A DNA stretch of 64,000 nucleotides from Candidatus Poribacteria bacterium (lineage in GTDB: Bacteria; Poribacteria; WGA-4E; WGA-3G): assembly GCA_009841255.1 (NCBI GenBank), contig VXMD01000083.1, positions 62,001-126,000 on the forward strand, given 5' to 3'. Of the stretch, positions 2,265 through 64,000 are shown piece by piece; the first letter of the stretch is position 1; each line of letters starts with the position of its first letter. The notes beneath the pieces are model-generated. The model did no database searches, was not told the DNA's origin, and was given only the letters and a program-made list of their open reading frames with translations. The position numbers and the translations under genes were made by a program.

Positions 2265-2291
2265 GTAAGGGTTGGGTGACCCAACCCCTAC
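2265..2291. repeat. 27-bp palindromic repeat, copy 1
   Basis: An inverted repeat of exactly 27 bp. The left arm is GTAAGGGTTGGGT and the right arm ACCCAACCCCTAC. It lies just downstream of the stop of the Gfo/Idh/MocA gene at 2299. It has the same length and the same GTA...TAC ends as the repeats at 47192, 57784 and 61136. Confidence 0.8.
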
Positions 2292-2298
2292 GAAACTA

Positions 2299-3294
2299 CT
2301 ACAGCGGGAAATCAATTGACTGTCCTTGTTCAGAGGACATGTAGAATGCCTGCATGAGTTCCGTGAGGTTACGTCCATCTTGGATCGTAATCGTCATCGG
2401 TTCATCGCGAAGAATGGCGTTAATCCACTGTTGTATCGGTTCAGGGGGTGCGGCGGGGGCGTTAGCGATGTATTCCGCTTTCTCTTCATCAGAGAGTTTG
2501 CGGGTTTCAAAATGCATCTCGCCGTGTCCCGCGGCAAATGAGCCTTCCGTGCCGTAAATCTCAAGCATATTTGGACCGGAACGGTGTGTCCACGCAACAT
2601 CAATCACGCCGAGTGCCTTGTTCGCGAACTCAACAACGGAGACGCTGTTGTCATCAATCGGGAAGTTGCCAGTGAAGTTGTTAATCTTAGCGATAGCACT
2701 CCTCGGCTCACCCATCAACCACCGAATAACATCGACACGATGACACCCCAAATCGAAAAGGGCACCGCCACCCGCGCGGGCTGGATCTGCAAACCATGCG
2801 CTCGTGCCACTAAACCAACTATCCAACGCGGCGGAATGTGCGATCCGCCCTCTACCGAACGTGATATCCCCAAGCAGCCCATCGTCGATCGCTTTTTTCG
2901 CGAACAAAATTTCAGGGTTAGCCCGGGAAGGCAGCGAAATCATGAACTTCACACCCGCCTTCTCGACAGCCTCAATAATTGGATCACATTCCGCGACAGT
3001 AATCGCGAGTGCCTTCTCTGTGAAGATGTGTTTCCCAGCTTCAGCGGCAGCGATCATCACACGCGGATGGTCGGACGTAATCGCGTCAACGGCGACAGCG
3101 TCTACATCGTCGCGGCTGAGGACTTCATCAAGATCGGTATAGAACGGGACTTCGTACTGTTCTGCTGCTTCTCTTCCACCGTATTCTTCTTCGTCCCAGA
3201 CGGCAACGAGTTCGGTTTCAGAGTTTTCATTAATTTTTCGGGCATAACCACCGGCGTGGACATGCGCCATACTAATCTTTGCGACTTTTATCAT
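2299..3294 (-). CDS. Gfo/Idh/MocA family oxidoreductase
   Basis: About 331 residues starting MIKVAKISMAHVHAGGYARK. The N-terminus is a Rossmann-type NAD(P)-binding fold. The conserved block GKHIFTEKALAI is the EKP-motif region, here EKA instead of EKP. Later RAGGGALFDLGCHRVDVIRWLMG is the usual substrate-side GG-x-L-x-D-x-G-x-H motif. Members oxidise or epimerise sugars and polyols; the substrate cannot be read from sequence. The frame stays open to 3372, but the start at 3294 is preferred: AAAGGAG lies 6 nt upstream, and the longer form would run into the preceding PhyH gene. It follows that gene with a 32-nt gap, so the two may be co-transcribed. Confidence 0.88.
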   Translation of the reverse strand: MIKVAKISMAHVHAGGYARKINENSETELVAVWDEEEYGGREAAEQYEVPFYTDLDEVLSRDDVDAVAVDAITSDHPRVMIAAAEAGKHIFTEKALAITVAECDPIIEAVEKAGVKFMISLPSRANPEILFAKKAIDDGLLGDITFGRGRIAHSAALDSWFSGTSAWFADPARAGGGALFDLGCHRVDVIRWLMGEPRSAIAKINNFTGNFPIDDNSVSVVEFANKALGVIDVAWTHRSGPNMLEIYGTEGSFAAGHGEMHFETRKLSDEEKAEYIANAPAAPPEPIQQWINAILRDEPMTITIQDGRNLTELMQAFYMSSEQGQSIDFPL

Positions 3295-3326
3295 GTAATT
3301 CTCCTTTAAGGTGAAACTTCCTACAA

Positions 3327-4100
3327 TTATATAATCCTTCCAATAGAAGAACGGGTTGCGAGATGATTCCACCCACGAAGCACCAATTTGACGTTGGTGT
3401 GACGATTCTCGGATTCGATCTCATCATCACCGGCAAGCATTTGAACGAGGACACTCTTTCGCGTTTGGTTCGAGTGGTTTGGCATCGAACCGTGCAGGGT
3501 AAAGTAACTAAAGAAAAGTACATCTCCCGGTTCCGCTTCTAAAACGGTAGCATTTTCAATCGGATATCGTTCCGTAACTTCAGCGTTCTTTCCACTTCCC
3601 ATCATGCCATCCATACGTCCCAATTCCCTGTGGGAACCCGGATAAACACGGACACACCCCATTTCATCGGTAGCCTCTGAAACATAGATCATAGCGGCTA
3701 TCATCGTGTCTTTGACGGACGGGAAATACTGCCAATCTTGGTGCAGCGGAAAGGGTGAACCCGTCTCTGGTGGTTTGCAGAAAAGTTTGGAGTGGTGAAG
3801 CATAATATCCGGTCCGAGGATGGCTTCGGTAATATCAAGGAACTTCTCCTGCAAGAACGCCTGCATCCAAACACCGGAGAAACTCTGAATATTGTGGGTA
3901 TGGATGATAACGGATTCACCGCCATCAAGGGCGTCCATCAATCTGCCCCCCCAACGTGCGTTGACGTTCTCATCGCTTTTGAGGAGTTGATCCACCACCC
4001 GATCGAAATCATTCTCCATCGCATTGATTTCTTCGGACGAATAGACACCTTTGGCGAAATAGTATCCGTTTTCGTGAAAGAATTTGCCGATATCTGACAT
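3327..4100 (-). CDS. Phytanoyl-CoA dioxygenase (PhyH) family protein
   Basis: 257 residues, a non-haem Fe(II)/2-oxoglutarate oxygenase of the PhyH family. The iron ligands are visible as H120-x-D122 (PFPLHQDWQYF) and H203 (YFTLHGSMPNHS). Arg 214 in NQTRKS is a plausible 2-oxoglutarate anchor. The strand GCVRVYPGSHRELG between them is typical of the family. A GGAGG sequence stands before the ATG at 4100. The neighbouring downstream Gfo/Idh/MocA gene suggests a small catabolic unit, but the substrate is unknown. Confidence 0.88.
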   Translation of the reverse strand: MSDIGKFFHENGYYFAKGVYSSEEINAMENDFDRVVDQLLKSDENVNARWGGRLMDALDGGESVIIHTHNIQSFSGVWMQAFLQEKFLDITEAILGPDIMLHHSKLFCKPPETGSPFPLHQDWQYFPSVKDTMIAAMIYVSEATDEMGCVRVYPGSHRELGRMDGMMGSGKNAEVTERYPIENATVLEAEPGDVLFFSYFTLHGSMPNHSNQTRKSVLVQMLAGDDEIESENRHTNVKLVLRGWNHLATRSSIGRII

Positions 4101-4120: not shown

Positions 4121-4272
4121 ATTTTTAATTTTACCTTGTAGAGCAGGGAAGTGATATGAAAGTTGAAGGTTTTCGCTTAAGAGTCGCCTGCGTGTTTTTG
4201 CGAATCAGAATCAACGGTATGAATGCCGTGTGGCATTCCCCGGGGTATTTCTGCGTATTGTTGCAGGCTACG
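4121..4272 (-). repeat. Composite leader repeat, copy 2
   Basis: Minus-strand reading: a hairpin bounded by GCCTGC/GCAGGC (4186-4191 and 4263-4268) leads into ACAAGGTAAAATTAAAAA and then to the PhyH start region. The variable centre contains its own small hairpin with arms GAATGCC/GGCATTC near 4221-4238. The ends match the copies at 10200-10243 and 63200-63265 closely, while the centres differ. Confidence 0.72.
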
Positions 4273-4323
4273 TCTTTATTCATCCTATACGCTATTCGTC
4301 ATAGGTTCCCCCGCAGGTTTAAC

Positions 4324-9632: not shown

Positions 9633-10178
9633 TTACAGCACATCATATTTTTTTTTCATAAATTCAACCACGATTGCTGGGACCATTTCCAGTAACTTCT
9701 CCTCACTCACCTTTCGCTGTGCCATCTGCACGACTTCCATCACGAGTGTTGAACTGATATGTGCGTATTGTGTATTTGCCATCATAAAGAGTGTATCAAT
9801 GTCCGGGGCGATCTGTTGATTCATCCGCGCCATCTTGAACTCCCACTCGAAATCGGAAATCTCACGTAAACCCCGGATAATGGAACAAGCCCCACGCGCC
9901 TGTGCATAATGCACTGTCAACCCAGTATACCCCTCAATCGTGGCGTGTGGATACGGTTCAATGACAGCCTCAAGCATTTGGATGCGCTCCTCGAGTGTAA
10001 AACGCGCCGGTTTGGCGGGATTCACACCAATCGCAACAACCAGTTCATCAAAGATACCGAGGTTGCAAATCCGATCAATGAGATCGACGTGTCCATTCGT
10101 GACGGGGTCGAAACTCGCGGGAAAGATGGCGATCTTTTTAAGTATTCCTTGCGGTTCAGTCAGGTGGGTTTGATGCAT
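9633..10178 (-). CDS. coaD: Phosphopantetheine adenylyltransferase (CoaD) with repeat-derived N-terminus
   Basis: 181 residues. It catalyses the adenylyl transfer from ATP to 4'-phosphopantetheine in coenzyme A synthesis. Visible are FPASFDPVTNGHVDLI (nucleotidyltransferase T-x-G-H motif, 27-30), SIIRGLREISDFEWEFKMARMNQ, and the C-terminal ISSTLVMEV. The family usually starts about at KKIAIFP. Here 13 extra residues (MHQTHLTEPQGIL) precede it, encoded by the end of a composite repeat (10134-10250). The ATG at 10178 has GGAGAGG 6 nt upstream. No ATG, GTG or TTG lies closer to the conserved start, so the extension is probably real. Confidence 0.93.
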   Translation of the reverse strand: MHQTHLTEPQGILKKIAIFPASFDPVTNGHVDLIDRICNLGIFDELVVAIGVNPAKPARFTLEERIQMLEAVIEPYPHATIEGYTGLTVHYAQARGACSIIRGLREISDFEWEFKMARMNQQIAPDIDTLFMMANTQYAHISSTLVMEVVQMAQRKVSEEKLLEMVPAIVVEFMKKKYDVL

Positions 10179-10250
10179 GAAGTGCCTCTCCGTAGACCCG
10201 CCTGCGTGTTTTTGCTTGGGTATTTCTGCGTATTGTTGCAGGCTACGGGT
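10134..10250 (-). repeat. Composite leader repeat, copy 4, overlapping the coaD 5' end
   Basis: On the minus strand a hairpin is framed by CCGTAG/CTACGG (10243-10248 and 10190-10195) and GCCTGC/GCAGGC (10238-10243 and 10200-10205). GGAGAGG then gives the coaD RBS. GAACCGCAAGGAATACTTAA follows inside the coding sequence. It is the clearest copy of the element. Confidence 0.75.
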
Positions 10251-10345
10251 TTTGGATACTATACTGAAGTAAAAACTGTTTCAAATTTTATCACAAATGT
10301 CTGCGTAAAGCAAGTCCTCCTGTTTTTAGCAAAAATCAAAAAAAG

Positions 10346-32349: not shown

Positions 32350-32830
32350 TGTTCGGTGGTTTTTTATCAGTCAACATAACCCAAATTGCCACCTTTCATT
32401 TACATAGCACCCCTATGGGGTGCGGCTCCGTAAATATCCGATTTTCTATAGACATAACACCCCTACGGGGTATGAAGAGACACTCTTCCTTGAAAAATCC
32501 GTGTTTAAACACCCAAAACCTATCAGGTAGCAACTTGGGTTAGCATAACACAAAATAGGATATTTTATTGAATTAGCATATCACGATACGGAACCAGATG
32601 TCAAGGAAAACCGAATCATGATTAGAGCCATACGATTTTCGGTTTTCCGCTGATTCTATAGGATAAATCGCGAACTGGAACTCGCTCTTACAAGGATGTG
32701 TCGGGAATCGGAGTTCCCTCCTACAGAAGAATGGATGACTCCGATTATGCAACAACATAAGTCCCATAAACGAGTGAAGATATGATATACTGCAACCCAA
32801 CCACAATCTAAATAGCAGAGGTAAAAAATC
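32350..32830. repeat. Repeat-rich intergenic region
   Basis: A 481-nt gap without a gene. It holds the perfect palindrome GCACCCCTATGGGGTGC (32407-32423) and ACCCCTACGGGGT (32459-32471) preceded by GATTTTCTATAGACATA. That latter string recurs at 35443-35460. It also holds a 25-nt repeat at 32700-32724 shared with 62340. A TATACT box at 32786-32791 may serve the next gene, but I see no good -35. Confidence 0.6.
32700..32724 (-). repeat. 25-bp dispersed repeat, copy 1
   Basis: Reads GTAGGAGGGAACTCC on the minus strand and continues GATTCCCGAC. The copy at 62340-62364 on the plus strand differs at one base. Confidence 0.75.
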
Positions 32831-46594: not shown

Positions 46595-48553
46595 TTACAT
46601 ATCAAATAGAAACGGATTATTTGCGTCAAAATAATAGGCGGGTTCTTCTACGGAAGTTTGGCTGTCCTTTGTCAAACGAATCGGGGCGGAAAACTGTTCA
46701 ATGATCTCCTTCTGGGCAAGCCACTCACACGCCAATTCAAAGGCGAGTTGACGGCTACCGAAGTGCGTATAGATGTCGGTAATCGTCCGTTCTTCACCCG
46801 ATTCTTCCAAGAAATCAAGCAACGGTTTGAACAGGGTCTGTAGATGATCCTCTAAATACGCATCAATCCGTTCAAGGGCATCGCGCAGTATCGTCTCGTC
46901 TTTCTGTGTGTCTATCAGATCCGTGAAAATGGCGTTGAAAAAGGACGGATTGTGCGCAAGCGCTTGATAGATAACCTTACGCCTCGGTGTTTCGTTGTGC
47001 ATGAGGACTTCAATACGTGCCAATTCCCTGACCGCATACGTCAGGTAGAGAAATGTGTAATTAATATCGTGCTTGAGGTGGAACCACTTTTCGGCTTTTG
47101 CGAGGATAGCTGCCACGTTGGCGGCGGCATTGAGGAGTTGCGAGTGTTTATCCCGTTCACCGACCTGTAAACAGGAGGGGTCACCGACACTGTAGGGGCG
47201 AGGTAACCTCGCCCCTACGGAAAAGAGACTGTCTTTGGAAAAAAGGACACGGCTTTCCGCGAGAATCGAATGGAGTGAACTCCCTTGTAGCGTCCCTTCC
47301 AACAACTTTCTATAGTCATTGCGGGTGTAGAGTTGAACTCGGAACGGAATCCCATCTTCAATTAACTGATACTCCTTCCGCTTGAATTTTGTTCCATCTC
47401 TCAGGATGAGTGTGATGTGGGGCGTTGTTTTCTCCCAGACGTTGTCTTCGGCGAGGTTACTGGTGAGAACTGCGGCGAGGATGTACATGTCCTCACTGAG
47501 CGTGTCCGTTAAATTGTCCAATGCCTGGTGAATCCGTGTGTGGATGTCGTCTTGCGAACGCTCTTGAGAAGCATCGTGAGCATCGTTCGCTCCTGCAGTC
47601 TCATCGTAATAGTAGGCGGGCTCTTCCACGGAAACCTGGCTTTTCACTGTGAGTTTTATCGGCATCGCAACTTGCCTGATAATCCCTTTCCACGCCAACC
47701 ATTGACAGATCAAATCCAACGATTCATCATCAAATTCGGGAATACCTTCGCTGTTGACATGCAAACCGCGCCCCAAGTCTGCGTTCAATTCGGTGTTCGT
47801 GCGCGGTGCTTTCTGCTCAATGAGATACTCAAGAATCGGTTGGAAAACAAACTGCCGCGCATCCAGATAGGCACTAATTGCATCCAGCGCGTCCTGAAGG
47901 ACCGCTTCCGTCTTTTCACAGTTGATTAAATCTGTATAGACACGATTAAAGAAATCAGGATTGTAACGGAGTGCGGGTTGAATCACCTCGCGTGCCGGGA
48001 TTTCATTGTTCAAAAGCACTTCCAATCGTGCCAATCCTTGCACGACATTCAAAAGTGATAGGAAACAGGTGAGGTAATCCTTGTTGACGTAAAACTGTTT
48101 TTCAGCATAGACGAGGCTCGGCAGTGTGCTGGCGATGACATTGAGCAGTTGGAACTGTTTATCACGTTCACCGATGTTGTCGAGGCTTGCGTTTTTATCA
48201 TACCACTCTTGGATGGAGGCATCGTGCGAAAAGAGGAGCGTGCTGTGTGAGAAATAGGAGTGCATGAAGGATCCCTGTTGCGCACCCTCTATTGCCTGTT
48301 TAAAAGCATTCCGCGGAGTTATATTCGCGTGGATATTGACCCCGTTTTCAACGAACGAAAAGAAAGATTGTGTCGGACGAATCGCGTCTTTGCCGATGAG
48401 TTCCACATCAAGGTCCGATTTTTCCCAGACCTGTGCATAAGAGAAACTGCCTGCAACAATAGCGGCGAGGACATAAGGATCTTTCTGAACCTTTTCGACA
48501 AGCATCTCCACGGCTTCGCGGTACTGTTCTTCGATAACGTCTTGGGATTGCAT
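46595..48553 (-). CDS. Internally duplicated nucleotidyltransferase-like protein; second copy degenerate
   Basis: 652 residues made of two similar halves (about 1-315 and 335-652), each ending in SQ[VT]SVEEPAYYYD/F-type sequence. The first half has a nucleotidyltransferase core: G35-S36 in VAGSFSYAQVWEKSDLDVEL with D47 and D49. In the second half the matching stretch reads LTSNLAEDNVWEKTTPHITLIL, without GS or the Asp pair, so it is probably non-catalytic. Both halves share NALxHNPxFFN- and ERDKxxQLLN-type blocks in helical parts. The second half contains VGARLPRPY, encoded by the 27-bp palindrome at 47192. Function unknown. Confidence 0.75.
   Translation of the reverse strand: MQSQDVIEEQYREAVEMLVEKVQKDPYVLAAIVAGSFSYAQVWEKSDLDVELIGKDAIRPTQSFFSFVENGVNIHANITPRNAFKQAIEGAQQGSFMHSYFSHSTLLFSHDASIQEWYDKNASLDNIGERDKQFQLLNVIASTLPSLVYAEKQFYVNKDYLTCFLSLLNVVQGLARLEVLLNNEIPAREVIQPALRYNPDFFNRVYTDLINCEKTEAVLQDALDAISAYLDARQFVFQPILEYLIEQKAPRTNTELNADLGRGLHVNSEGIPEFDDESLDLICQWLAWKGIIRQVAMPIKLTVKSQVSVEEPAYYYDETAGANDAHDASQERSQDDIHTRIHQALDNLTDTLSEDMYILAAVLTSNLAEDNVWEKTTPHITLILRDGTKFKRKEYQLIEDGIPFRVQLYTRNDYRKLLEGTLQGSSLHSILAESRVLFSKDSLFSVGARLPRPYSVGDPSCLQVGERDKHSQLLNAAANVAAILAKAEKWFHLKHDINYTFLYLTYAVRELARIEVLMHNETPRRKVIYQALAHNPSFFNAIFTDLIDTQKDETILRDALERIDAYLEDHLQTLFKPLLDFLEESGEERTITDIYTHFGSRQLAFELACEWLAQKEIIEQFSAPIRLTKDSQTSVEEPAYYFDANNPFLFDM
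47192..47218. repeat. 27-bp palindromic repeat, copy 2, inside a coding sequence
   Basis: Perfect palindrome: GTAGGGGCGAGGT, one central base, ACCTCGCCCCTAC. It lies within the gene at 46595-48553 and keeps its frame (nine codons). It replaces no conserved block of the first half, so it looks inserted. Confidence 0.88.
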
Positions 48554-57783: not shown

Positions 57784-57810
57784 GTAGAGGCTGGGGAACC
57801 CAGCCCCTAC
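57784..57810. repeat. 27-bp palindromic repeat, copy 3
   Basis: Arms GTAGAGGCTGGG and CCCAGCCCCTAC around a 3-nt centre; one mismatch. It is intergenic, in the leader of the PhyH gene. Confidence 0.82.
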
Positions 57811-57841: not shown

Positions 57842-58732
57842 ATGAAACTCCCTTTTTTGCATCAGGAAGTAGACGTCAGTACCGATTTGCGAGAAAGTAA
57901 CGACATCCTTGATAATCCCGAAGCCTTGCAAGAACGGATGGCAACGGACGGGTATCTCCTGATTCGCGAATTACACGACAAGGACGCGATCCTTACGGCG
58001 CGTCGACAGATTCTGGAGAAACTCGCCGACAAAGGGATGCTCGCGCCAGATACACCGCTGATGGACGGGATCTTCAACCCCGATTATCCCGAACCGACAT
58101 CAACCGGCTCAATGGGCAATAAGGCACTCACGCAGATGCCTGCCTTCACAGCGGTCGTCGAGGGTGAACCCATCATGAACTTTTTCAAGCAATTCCTCGG
58201 TGGCGATGCCCGGACGTTCGATTTCAAATGGCTTCGCACGGCAGGACCTGGATCAGGCTCCCCGATACATTACGATATCGTCTTTATGGGCAGAGGCACG
58301 CAACATCTCTACTCCTGTTGGACACCCTTTGGCGACGTATCGTTGGACATGGGTCCAATCGTATTCTGTCTCGGTTCCAACCGATTTGAAGAGGTCCGCG
58401 CCACTTACGGACAGTCAGACGTGGATCGAGATATGATTGAGGGACACTTCAGCGATAAACCGCTTGAGATCGTTGAGAAATTCGGGGGACACTGGGCAAC
58501 GACCTCGTTCTCAGCAGGTGACGTGATTATTTTCAGCATGTTTCTGATGCATGCTTCGCTCGTGAACACCTCCGATAAAATTCGGATAACAGCAGATACC
58601 CGCTACCAACTTGCCGCTGAACCCATCGATGAACGCTGGGTTGGTGAAAAACCGAAAGGGCATTACGCATGGAAGCAACAGGGCGCGAAGATCGAAACCT
58701 TGGAAAAATCACGGGAGAGATGGGGTGTTTAG
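57842..58732 (+). CDS. Phytanoyl-CoA dioxygenase (PhyH) family protein
   Basis: 296 residues. The Fe(II) ligands are H-x-D in SPIHYDIVFMG and the distal His in SMFLMHASLVNTSD, with IRITADTRYQ as the likely 2-oxoglutarate anchor. RQDLD-like chain length and the middle block WTPFGDVSLDMGPIVFCLGS match PhyH proteins. It is distinct from the one at 3327. Substrate unknown. The start is in AATTAAAAAATG. Confidence 0.87.
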   Translation: MKLPFLHQEVDVSTDLRESNDILDNPEALQERMATDGYLLIRELHDKDAILTARRQILEKLADKGMLAPDTPLMDGIFNPDYPEPTSTGSMGNKALTQMPAFTAVVEGEPIMNFFKQFLGGDARTFDFKWLRTAGPGSGSPIHYDIVFMGRGTQHLYSCWTPFGDVSLDMGPIVFCLGSNRFEEVRATYGQSDVDRDMIEGHFSDKPLEIVEKFGGHWATTSFSAGDVIIFSMFLMHASLVNTSDKIRITADTRYQLAAEPIDERWVGEKPKGHYAWKQQGAKIETLEKSRERWGV

Positions 58733-61037: not shown

Positions 61038-61625
61038 TTACAGCCCACCGCGTGTAGACGCGTTGGTATAACTCACCTGTTTCAAGACGTAATGTCGCTG
61101 CATTGGACGCACCGACCTTGGAATAACACCGCCCGGTAGGGGCGAGGTCACCACGCCCCTACTTCCTACGGCACGCCGCGTTACTACCGGCGAGGTCGCA
61201 ACTTGCACTTTTTGAGACTCAGGTGTTACCACAACTGAACCGGAATCTCGATCGAACAGGAACCCATCTTGATAGAGATAGATGCCCGTTACGGCGAGAA
61301 TTAACGCCAAAATGCCACTAATTGCCCATACGGGGCGGCGAAATACATCCAGCAGTTGTTTCCAACCTGTTGTCGCGATTCCCTTAACCCCATTGACTTC
61401 GTTCTGCTCTTCAGCAATCCGTTGCATCAACGTCGGCATAAAGTAGGGAGAAGGTTCAATCTGTGGCAATTGCTGGACAGCCTTAACAGATTCCTGAAAT
61501 CTGGCATATTCCTGCTGACACGCCTCACACGCTGCGAGGTGTTCTTCAAACCCCTGCAACGTCTCATAATCAAGTGTGTCCTCAAAATGGGCAGAGAAAT
61601 GTTCCTCAGCCTGTAGGCAGTTCAT
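61038..61625 (-). CDS. Anti-sigma factor with zinc-finger (zf-HC2) and one TM
   Basis: 195 residues. The N-terminal H-x3-C-x2-C motif is H29, C33, C36 in EEHLAACEACQQEY. One TM follows (about 95-116, WAISGILALILAVTGIYLY), then an extracytoplasmic tail. It would hold the sigma factor encoded 21 nt upstream at the membrane. The tail contains SRGVVTSPLP, encoded by the 27-bp palindrome at 61136, in a different frame from the one used at 47192. Confidence 0.9.
   Translation of the reverse strand: MNCLQAEEHFSAHFEDTLDYETLQGFEEHLAACEACQQEYARFQESVKAVQQLPQIEPSPYFMPTLMQRIAEEQNEVNGVKGIATTGWKQLLDVFRRPVWAISGILALILAVTGIYLYQDGFLFDRDSGSVVVTPESQKVQVATSPVVTRRAVGSRGVVTSPLPGGVIPRSVRPMQRHYVLKQVSYTNASTRGGL
61136..61162. 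repeat. 27-bp palindromic repeat, copy 4, inside the anti-sigma factor gene
   Basis: GTAGGGGCGAGGT, then CACCACGCCCCTAC; same length and ends as copies 1-3, with one mismatch between the arms. It keeps the reading frame. Confidence 0.85.
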
Positions 61626-61646: not shown

Positions 61647-62246
61647 TTAGATAAAAGGTTTTAGCTTATCCTTAAGCATGAGTCGAGCACGGTTGATGCG
61701 AGATTTCGTTGTCCCGCTTCGGAGTTCCAATACCTCACTGATTTCATCGTAACTCAATCCCTGTAGGTCGCGTAAGATGAGAGGGAGTCTGTACTGTTCT
61801 GGTAATTCTGCGATCGCTTTTTGGATAGCGTTGCGTAACTCCTTACGTTCAAGTTCCACTTCCGGCTGGAAAGTCGGATTCGCGGGTGCATTTGCAATCA
61901 AATCAATTTCTTCCGCGTCGTTATGACCATCACTTCCACTGCTTACAACATTATCAACTCTATATTTGTCCCGCCGTTCTCGATTTCGGATTTCATTTTT
62001 GCAAAGATTTTTGGCGATGTGATACATCCACGTCTCAAAGTGCGCCCGCCCCGGTTCATAACGATGCGCCGCTTTAAACATGCGAATGAACGTCTCCTGC
62101 GCCAAATCCTCAGCATTATCCCGATCATTGATGAACCGAGCAATGAAATTGATGAGTGGCTGCTGATGTCGGCGCACGAGGAGCGTAAACGCGCCTTCAT
62201 CCCCTTTTTGGTAGCGTTCCATTAATTCATCATCTAAGTCAAGCAT
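61647..62246 (-). CDS. ECF RNA polymerase sigma factor (RpoE-like)
   Basis: 199 residues from the ATG at 62246, with GGAGG 6 nt upstream; a longer frame from 62285 lacks an SD. Region 2: MERYQKGDEGAFTLLVRRH, DRDNAEDLAQETFIRMFKAA, HFETWMYHIAKNLCKNEIR. Region 4: AIAELPEQYRLPLILRDLQGLSYDEISEVLELRSGTTKSRINRAR. It is intact, unlike the sigma remnant at 51030. Downstream anti-sigma and HtrA-like genes form a sigmaE-type stress module. Confidence 0.93.
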   Translation of the reverse strand: MLDLDDELMERYQKGDEGAFTLLVRRHQQPLINFIARFINDRDNAEDLAQETFIRMFKAAHRYEPGRAHFETWMYHIAKNLCKNEIRNRERRDKYRVDNVVSSGSDGHNDAEEIDLIANAPANPTFQPEVELERKELRNAIQKAIAELPEQYRLPLILRDLQGLSYDEISEVLELRSGTTKSRINRARLMLKDKLKPFI

Positions 62247-62439
62247 CTGGTGCCTCCGGAGGTGCTTATCCATAATATACACCAAACTTCAGATTTGGTT
62301 GCAAATTTTTTCGGGGCATAAGATGGCCACCAGAAACCGGTAGGAGGAAACTCCGATTCCCGACTCACAACAGGACAAATTTCCCAATCCCTACTGACAA
62401 CTGATAACTGAAAACTGGATGCTATTTACGGCGCGTGTC
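62247..62439. repeat. Intergenic region with two dispersed repeats
   Basis: Contains the 25-nt repeat at 62340-62364 (second copy of 32700) and CTGACAACTGATAACTGAAA at 62393-62418, related to 9576 and 11139. No gene seen. Confidence 0.65.
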
Positions 62440-63142: not shown

Positions 63143-63268
63143 TTGTTCGCAAGGCGTTAAATGAAGTTATTTGTTCATTGAAGATTTTTTCTTATATCCG
63201 CCTGCGTGTTTTTGCGAACGCTGAAATCCAATGCGAAGAAAGTATTTCTGCGTATTGTTGCAGGCTAC
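63140..63268. repeat. Composite repeat, copy 7
   Basis: CCGCCTGCGTGTTTTTGCG (63198-63216) and GTATTTCTGCGTATTGTTGC (63242-63261) match copies 2 and 4; arms GCCTGC/GCAGGC at 63200-63205 and 63260-63265. The centre differs. TTCGCAAGGCGTTAAATG near 63146 is a diverged form of the SD-like part. Confidence 0.7.
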
Positions 63269-63362
63269 CATCTTCGGTTATAGTAGTAAAATAAAACTAT
63301 AGCAAGTCCAAGAATTACAGTAAGCCCGTAACGAAGTGGAGGGCAAATCTACGGAGGAGACC

Positions 63363-64000
63363 GTGAAAACCACAAACCTTTTGACCGAACCGCAAGGAAA
63401 ATTAAAAAATTTCGACTCTGTTGCGCGATTACCTTCGCCGGGCGATAACGTCGCTATCGCAGCCCAAACGTTGGAGCGTGGTACACGCATCCGTTATGAT
63501 GAACACAAGTTTGAATTGTCACACACTATTTTAGAGGGACATCGGTTTGCTGTCCAATCGATTTCGGAAACCGAGCCACTCTTGTCATGGGGGCTACCTT
63601 TCGGTTTCGCGACGCGTCCTATTTCCCCTGGTGATTACGTGTGCAATCAGAAAATGATCGATTCGTTGTCGATTAGAAACTTACCCTTCGAATTGCCAGA
63701 GGCCCCTAACTTCAGCGATAAAATGGCACCCTACCAATTAGATGAAACAGCATTCCGGCCTGGGAAGCAGGTGCCGCGTCATCCAAACGAACGCTCCTTC
63801 CTGGGTTACCAGCGTCCGGGGAATCGCGGCGTTGGCACGCGAAACTATATCGTCGTTATGGGAACGACTGCACGCACCTCTGGTTTCGCGAGAAGATTGG
63901 CAGATATGTGTTCAGTAGGAGGGGTTTGTAACCCCGATACATTTCCGCACATAGACGGTATTGTCGCCGTAACACACACAGAAGGCGGTGAGAGCCAGAC
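63363..64000 (+). CDS. UxaA-family (altronate/galactarate-type) dehydratase, 5' part
   Basis: GTG start with GGAGGAGA upstream; the frame runs off the window (212 codons seen). An N-terminal SAF-like domain (DNVAIAAQTLERGTRIRYDEHKFEL, HRFAVQSISETEPLLSWGLPFG) is followed by the dehydratase part (FLGYQRPGNRGVGTRNYIVVMGT, HIDGIVAVTHTEGG), as in UxaA-type sugar-acid dehydratases. The first residues KTTNLLTEPQGKLKN come from the same repeat as the coaD start. A short palindrome GGGGTTTGTAACCCC (63921-63935) lies in the coding part. Confidence 0.85.
   Translation, partial: MKTTNLLTEPQGKLKNFDSVARLPSPGDNVAIAAQTLERGTRIRYDEHKFELSHTILEGHRFAVQSISETEPLLSWGLPFGFATRPISPGDYVCNQKMIDSLSIRNLPFELPEAPNFSDKMAPYQLDETAFRPGKQVPRHPNERSFLGYQRPGNRGVGTRNYIVVMGTTARTSGFARRLADMCSVGGVCNPDTFPHIDGIVAVTHTEGGESQ

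Follow-up and report, generated by a model that had tools for sequence, protein, structure and literature searches.

A 27-nt palindrome is dispersed through the genome of a Candidatus Poribacteria bacterium. It resides in frame inside genes, target sequence is lost at its sites, and hairpins with the same arms lie within the genes of a transposase clade. The 27-mer is a non-autonomous double-foot REP; Y1 HuH transposases of the TnpAREP subclass 2.4 type, present in this genome and genus, have most likely spread it in trans on single-stranded DNA. Inside genes, comparison with orthologs apparently reveals the overwriting of a short gene stretch and not a simple addition.

Copies in the window

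The window is a stretch of 64,000 nt from a draft genome of 5.73 Mb in 87 contigs. An earlier note on this DNA had listed four copies of exactly 27 bp, beginning at 2265, 47192, 57784 and 61136. All four are present (Table 1), though they are not identical: identity to the copy at 47192 is 70% (2265), 100% (47192), 78% (57784) and 93% (61136). The copy at 47192 has 13-bp arms and one centre base. Two copies lie in frame inside genes and are read in two different frames, as the note had also held. The reading is VGARLPRPY in the duplicated nucleotidyltransferase, where the REP is found only in the second half, in a linker, and SRGVVTSPLP in the anti-sigma factor, whose gene adjoins an ECF sigma factor gene (61647–62285). 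The copy at 2265 is located just beyond the end of a Gfo/Idh/MocA oxidoreductase gene (ORF 2299–3372, minus strand) and the copy at 57784 is located 31 nt ahead of a PhyH dioxygenase ORF (57842–58732, plus strand). A chance origin is rejected, as the pattern with up to three mismatches has two matches in the window and none in 100 shuffles.

Table 1. Palindromes of the 27-nt family in the window and the two genes that contain them.
Feature	Position	Strand	Remarks
Perfect palindrome GTAGGGGCGAGGT-N-ACCTCGCCCCTAC	47192..47218	.	Double-foot REP, 27 nt, in nucleotidyltransferase gene
Double-foot REP, 27 nt, one mispair	61136..61162	.	In zf-HC2 anti-sigma factor gene, near C-terminus
REP, TTGGG/CCCAA arm type	2265..2291	.	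Outside predicted genes
REP, CTGGG/CCCAG arm type	57784..57810	.	Intergenic
Internally duplicated nucleotidyltransferase	46595..48553	-	Polbeta and YgxA-like matches, both weak and under the Pfam cut-off
zf-HC2 anti-sigma factor	61038..61625	-	REP in C-terminal tail

The window contains further repeats. A second REP type, GTAGGAGG(G/A)AACTCCGATTCCCGAC, is present at 32697–32724 and 62340–62367 in opposite orientations, and the same unit forms tandem repeats beside another RAYT gene of this genome (L136). Parts of a longer dispersed repeat are found at 4179–4299, 10193–10274 and 63193–63296, and also at 10130–10162 and 63382–63414. It is common to three places of the window, once with inverted ends, and similar sequence flanks some REP copies elsewhere in the genome.

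Sequence and dispersal of the element

A whole-genome count, which the earlier note had proposed as a check, gives 80 places with at most three mismatches from GTAGGGGCNNGGTNACCNNGCCCCTAC and none for the reversed pattern, far above chance. The dominant arm types are CGAGG/CCTCG and CTGGG/CCCAG, and changes compensate across both arms. In five nearly whole contigs (1.186 Mb) the commonest palindrome length is 27 nt, and palindromes of this length are mostly of the REP class. Copy number within one genus ranges from 0 to 80.

The borders of the element are sharp at 27 nt. Pooled flanks of the copies diverge immediately with a mild lean towards A, and neither a consistent target duplication nor a conserved flanking sequence was found in them. 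They also have no conserved T run, which rejects an intrinsic terminator.

A GC-rich hairpin is framed by GTAG on the 5′ side and CTAC on the 3′ side, in agreement with the GT[AG]G and C[TC]AC feet of subclass 2.4 REPs. The base of the stem consists of three G-C pairs with the consensus GGGC/GCCC. With GTAG, hairpin and CTAC in this order, a GTAG is present on either strand. In 1.474 Mb of the genome's own sequence, 55 hairpins were detected by a scan for the core, compared with none in the reversed control. GTAG feet are present on both strands in 25 of these, on one strand in 29 and on neither in one; the two-foot share is biased upward because the scanned sequence had in part been selected for containing known hits. 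Hits in sister families within the order often have GTAG on one side only, opposite an unrelated tetranucleotide, like ordinary REPs.

Allowing one free base, the exact pattern is present in at least 118 public genome stretches. Among the matches listed, the record titles name Poribacteria, Acetothermia, Anaerolineales, Zixiibacteriota, Planctomycetes, Nitrospiraceae, cyanobacteria and others. Several Poribacteria loci match the source contigs at ~70–90% DNA identity, and some loci of other phyla contain paired REPs that share GTAGGGGC ends.

An element of ~67–69 nt with the same ends (GTA.GGG..., ...GCCCCTA) is present in genome G010 at the place where the source genome has a 27-mer (G000:C83:19790). 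Another one with these ends is present in the source genome itself (G000:C31:49741). The 27-mer may be a centrally deleted form of this longer element.

Residence inside genes

Genes were called with a simple codon-based caller of our own (1158 genes, 86% coding). In the five contigs, which were taken regardless of REPs, 17 of 28 copies are located inside ORFs, two at an edge and nine between genes. For all 51 classified copies these numbers are 24, 4 and 23. The reading frames of the 24 in-gene copies are distributed 10/12/2; in the rare frame, an intact GTAG foot is read as a TAG stop.

Pfam domains are present in nine of ten scanned host proteins, among them PurH, RecD2 helicase and hydantoinase A. 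The REP falls inside the matched domain range in PurH, hydantoinase A, a lactate-racemase-like protein and a RACo-like protein. In PurH (L187) the REP-coded peptide is found at residue 205, within the AICARFT domain, and in RecD2 (L181) at residue 647. The nine REP-encoded residues are probably without a function of their own.

Poribacteria and other phyla differ in this respect. Exact 27-mers lie in an ORF of at least 150 aa at 15 of 22 sites in Poribacteria and at 16 of 87 sites in other phyla (p=1.4e-5; 16 of 125 exact copies were too near a locus end and were omitted). The share of random positions of the same loci in such ORFs is 0.86 and 0.81, respectively. All in-ORF exact copies (31/31) are in frames 0 or 1, the two open frames. 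If one third of the net lengths and two thirds of the frames survive, the expected in-gene share is 58% for the source genome, close to the 17 of 28 seen, and 48% for the other phyla, which are far below it. Weak purging of in-gene copies in Poribacteria is one reading of this contrast; intergenic targeting in the other phyla is another.

Comparison with empty sites

The earlier note had explained the preserved frame by the length of the insert, 27 bp being nine codons. This does not hold, since the orthologs indicate that 21 and 18 nt were lost where 27 were gained. What preserves the frame is a net change divisible by three, rather than the divisibility of 27 itself. Orthologs without the repeat also lack the nine residues, as the note's reading of an acquired element demands.

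In the nucleotidyltransferase, the site measures 21 nt in 26 of 26 empty relatives and 27 nt in the filled ones (the source genome, L202, L204 and L308), a net gain of 6, and the flanks restart directly at the REP borders. The anti-sigma site measures 18 nt in the seven nearest relatives (net +9); more diverged comparisons give −6, −3, +15 or +72. Twelve further in-gene sites have net changes of +12, +18, +12, +14, +6, +18, +6, +9, +9, +18, +15 and 0, with a second homolog giving +16 at one of them. These replacement lengths rest on homologs that are 70–90% identical. A net change of +27 is seen at none of the 14 sites, though the search would accept it. At all but one of the 14 the net is a multiple of three, and the exceptional +14 comes from a gapped local alignment.

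At sites between genes or without a long open frame, net changes range from −17 to −49 (L034, L048, L094, L105 and C83:19790). In a gene at C82:83987, two REPs that abut each other span 50 nt for a net of +27. The comparison omits three sites of the source genome without an alignable homolog (C83:134500, 189676 and 192873), a repeat artefact (C18:67695) and a poor paralog (L111:4271). In the two window genes, a GTAG or CTAC of the empty ortholog already stands precisely where one foot of the REP later comes to lie. This is only suggestive, as it was not found at most other sites.

The transposase clade

The earlier note had recommended looking for an associated REP-type transposase, and such genes are indeed present in the genome. 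A search with PF01797 found six Y1 genes, none of which has an exact 27-mer within about 1.5 kb. This search missed the relevant clade, which was reached via RAYTs of other genomes: the RAYT model NF047646, run on 40 genomes with the 27-mer, led to a low-scoring clade with GTAG palindromes beside and inside the ORF. At one locus (L356), three identical palindrome copies stand before, in and after the conserved part of the transposase.

An alignment of seven members served as query for 84 genomes of the phylum. Matches were found in 60 of them, including the source genome, many being partial or weak. A GTAG hairpin lies between HuH and Trp in 35 of the 46 members with a readable HuH-to-Trp stretch, compared with 1 of 46 upstream control stretches of equal length; the former count is somewhat inflated because six of the seven seeds had been selected for their palindromes. 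The hairpins inside the ORFs are in frame and located in the loop after the HuH motif, also in the transposase of the source genome. The clade has the motifs MPNHxHG, WQRNY and YIxxNP, as compared with NH[IFV]H, WQ, YIxNNP and a variable post-HuH insert in subclass 2.4, and it is assigned to this subclass by motifs, not by a tree with published sequences.

The RAYT of the source genome (L390) has two in-frame hairpins in this loop, with the same CGAGG/CCTCG arms as the dispersed copies and other centres. In the genus, the peptides encoded by RAYT-borne copies are of the VGARSPRP or RRGEVPSP kind, matching the two reading frames used in the window genes. The RAYT-borne copies have TCT or TCC centres and mostly lack the 3′ CTAC foot, whereas the dispersed copies have TNA centres. 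A transposase gene flanked by the exact 27-mer was not found in the source genome.

Double-foot palindromes of 28–29 nt, with centres differing by genome, occupy the same place of the transposase in L354, L356, L357, L359, L372 and L397, and likewise in L399, L401, L402, L404 and L406. Thus, the core of the transposase-borne REP varies between genomes and its place in the protein is constant.

Within the genus, the mean copy number is 41 in 12 genomes with a clade match and 26 in 24 genomes without (p=0.025), presence being a match of at least 150 bits. With G030, in which the RAYT loop holds another REP, moved to the second group, the p-value is 0.005. This modest link is supportive only, because the genomes are drafts from species related to each other and the threshold was chosen post hoc. 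Of the 35 other genus members, with or without 27-mers, 23 have no strong clade match. Hence, either the copies outlive the transposase or the drafts miss it.

Mechanism and alternative explanations

The spread of REPs is poorly understood, as stated in PMC8266576. According to the cited passages of that work, cleavage of single-stranded DNA by other TnpAREPs takes place mainly at C|T adjacent to REPs, with GTAG contributing to site choice. Since C|T is part of the CTAC foot, both the guide and the cut site could be provided by a double-foot REP, whichever strand is used. Y1 HuH transposases that carry GTAG hairpins in their own ORF would act on the dispersed 27-mer. In genes, the REP would replace 9 to 27 nt of a tolerant loop rather than add 27, and copies would survive given a net change divisible by three and a frame other than the one giving a TAG stop. 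We infer that a subclass 2.4-type transposase of the genome moves the 27-nt REP and that it caused the overwriting.

Loss of target is not known to belong to the standard IS200/IS605 scheme, so the REP reaction either differs from that scheme or is completed by template switching at replication. Template switching between palindromes might also account for the copies entirely by itself, the link to RAYTs being historical. The many copies in genomes without a strong clade match would agree with this, as would the GTAG or CTAC already present at one foot in the empty orthologs of both window genes and the target loss, which is not known from the standard scheme. On the other hand, GTAG hairpins lie in and beside RAYT genes with centres that differ between genomes, and clade-bearing genomes contain more copies, which makes an origin without transposase unlikely.

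A plain in-frame insertion of 27 nt, followed by unrelated deletions that trim the loops, is also improbable. The sites do lie in loops of variable length among homologs, as in PurH compared with solved structures, and the comparisons rest on 70–90% identity. However, the lost 21 nt of the nucleotidyltransferase are present in every empty relative with flanks resuming at the REP borders, and the +27 of such an insertion is absent from all 14 in-gene sites compared. Far less credible still is a selected functional site, be it a terminator, a DNA uptake sequence or a protein-binding site. In its favour is the palindrome core that is identical across many phyla, against which stand the lack of a conserved T tract or flank, the variation in both arms, the 17 of 28 copies in ORFs and the strongly varying copy number in one genus. 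Furthermore, the two in-gene window sites are limited to few species and their positions are not genus-wide.

Beyond movement of the REP by the transposase, a wider proposal seems quite possible to us, if slightly doubtful. REPs may spread by replacing 9–27 nt flush with their own ends, perhaps starting from a pre-existing GTAG. In Poribacteria such replacement may be so unrestrained that the number of in-gene copies equals the expectation under purging of frame breaks and stops alone; the REP would then keep supplying housekeeping proteins with new loops of nine residues. Where many empty orthologs exist, an in-gene copy preserves a REP event at base resolution; here the event is read as a replacement, which is directly testable. 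That one identical sequence resides mainly within genes in one phylum and mainly outside them in others provides a natural comparison of the strength of purging by lineage.

Comparison with known systems

Like the Rickettsia palindromic elements (RPE), to which the earlier note had likened it, the 27-mer is a palindrome read in frame in diverse genes. RPE are longer than 27 nt. The likeness in behaviour stands; a kinship does not, and the likeness is an analogy. In the cited passages of Di Nocera 2013 (PMC3733652), the Rickettsia repeats are assigned to the CGTC type without a link to transposase genes, whereas the tag here is GTAG. Identity of this double-foot REP with the Rickettsia element is therefore rejected.

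The GTAG REPs described in the same passages share with it the GTAG end, the palindrome, the dispersal, the presence of some copies in genes and the association with RAYTs. They are tagged at one end and mostly extragenic there, whereas the element described here often has both feet and its Poribacteria copies are mostly in genes.

A text search of the literature for GTAGGGGCG gave no paper evidently on bacterial repeats among the matches listed, and a search on palindromes of Poribacteria none on the topic by title among those listed. The kind of element is nevertheless already known from Quentin et al. 2018 (PMC6006769), whose cited passages describe subclass 2.4 with its double-foot REPs. 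The 27-mer resembles these in its 5′ GT[AG]G and 3′ C[TC]AC feet, its long hairpin with G-C pairs at the base, its occurrence in many phyla and the REPs in frame within tnpAREP between the HuH and Y motifs. In contrast to that account, in whose cited passages Poribacteria are not named, most dispersed copies here lie in unrelated genes with target sequence lost at the site. Two points thus go beyond what we found in print: the intragenic bias in Poribacteria and the apparent overwriting in place of insertion.
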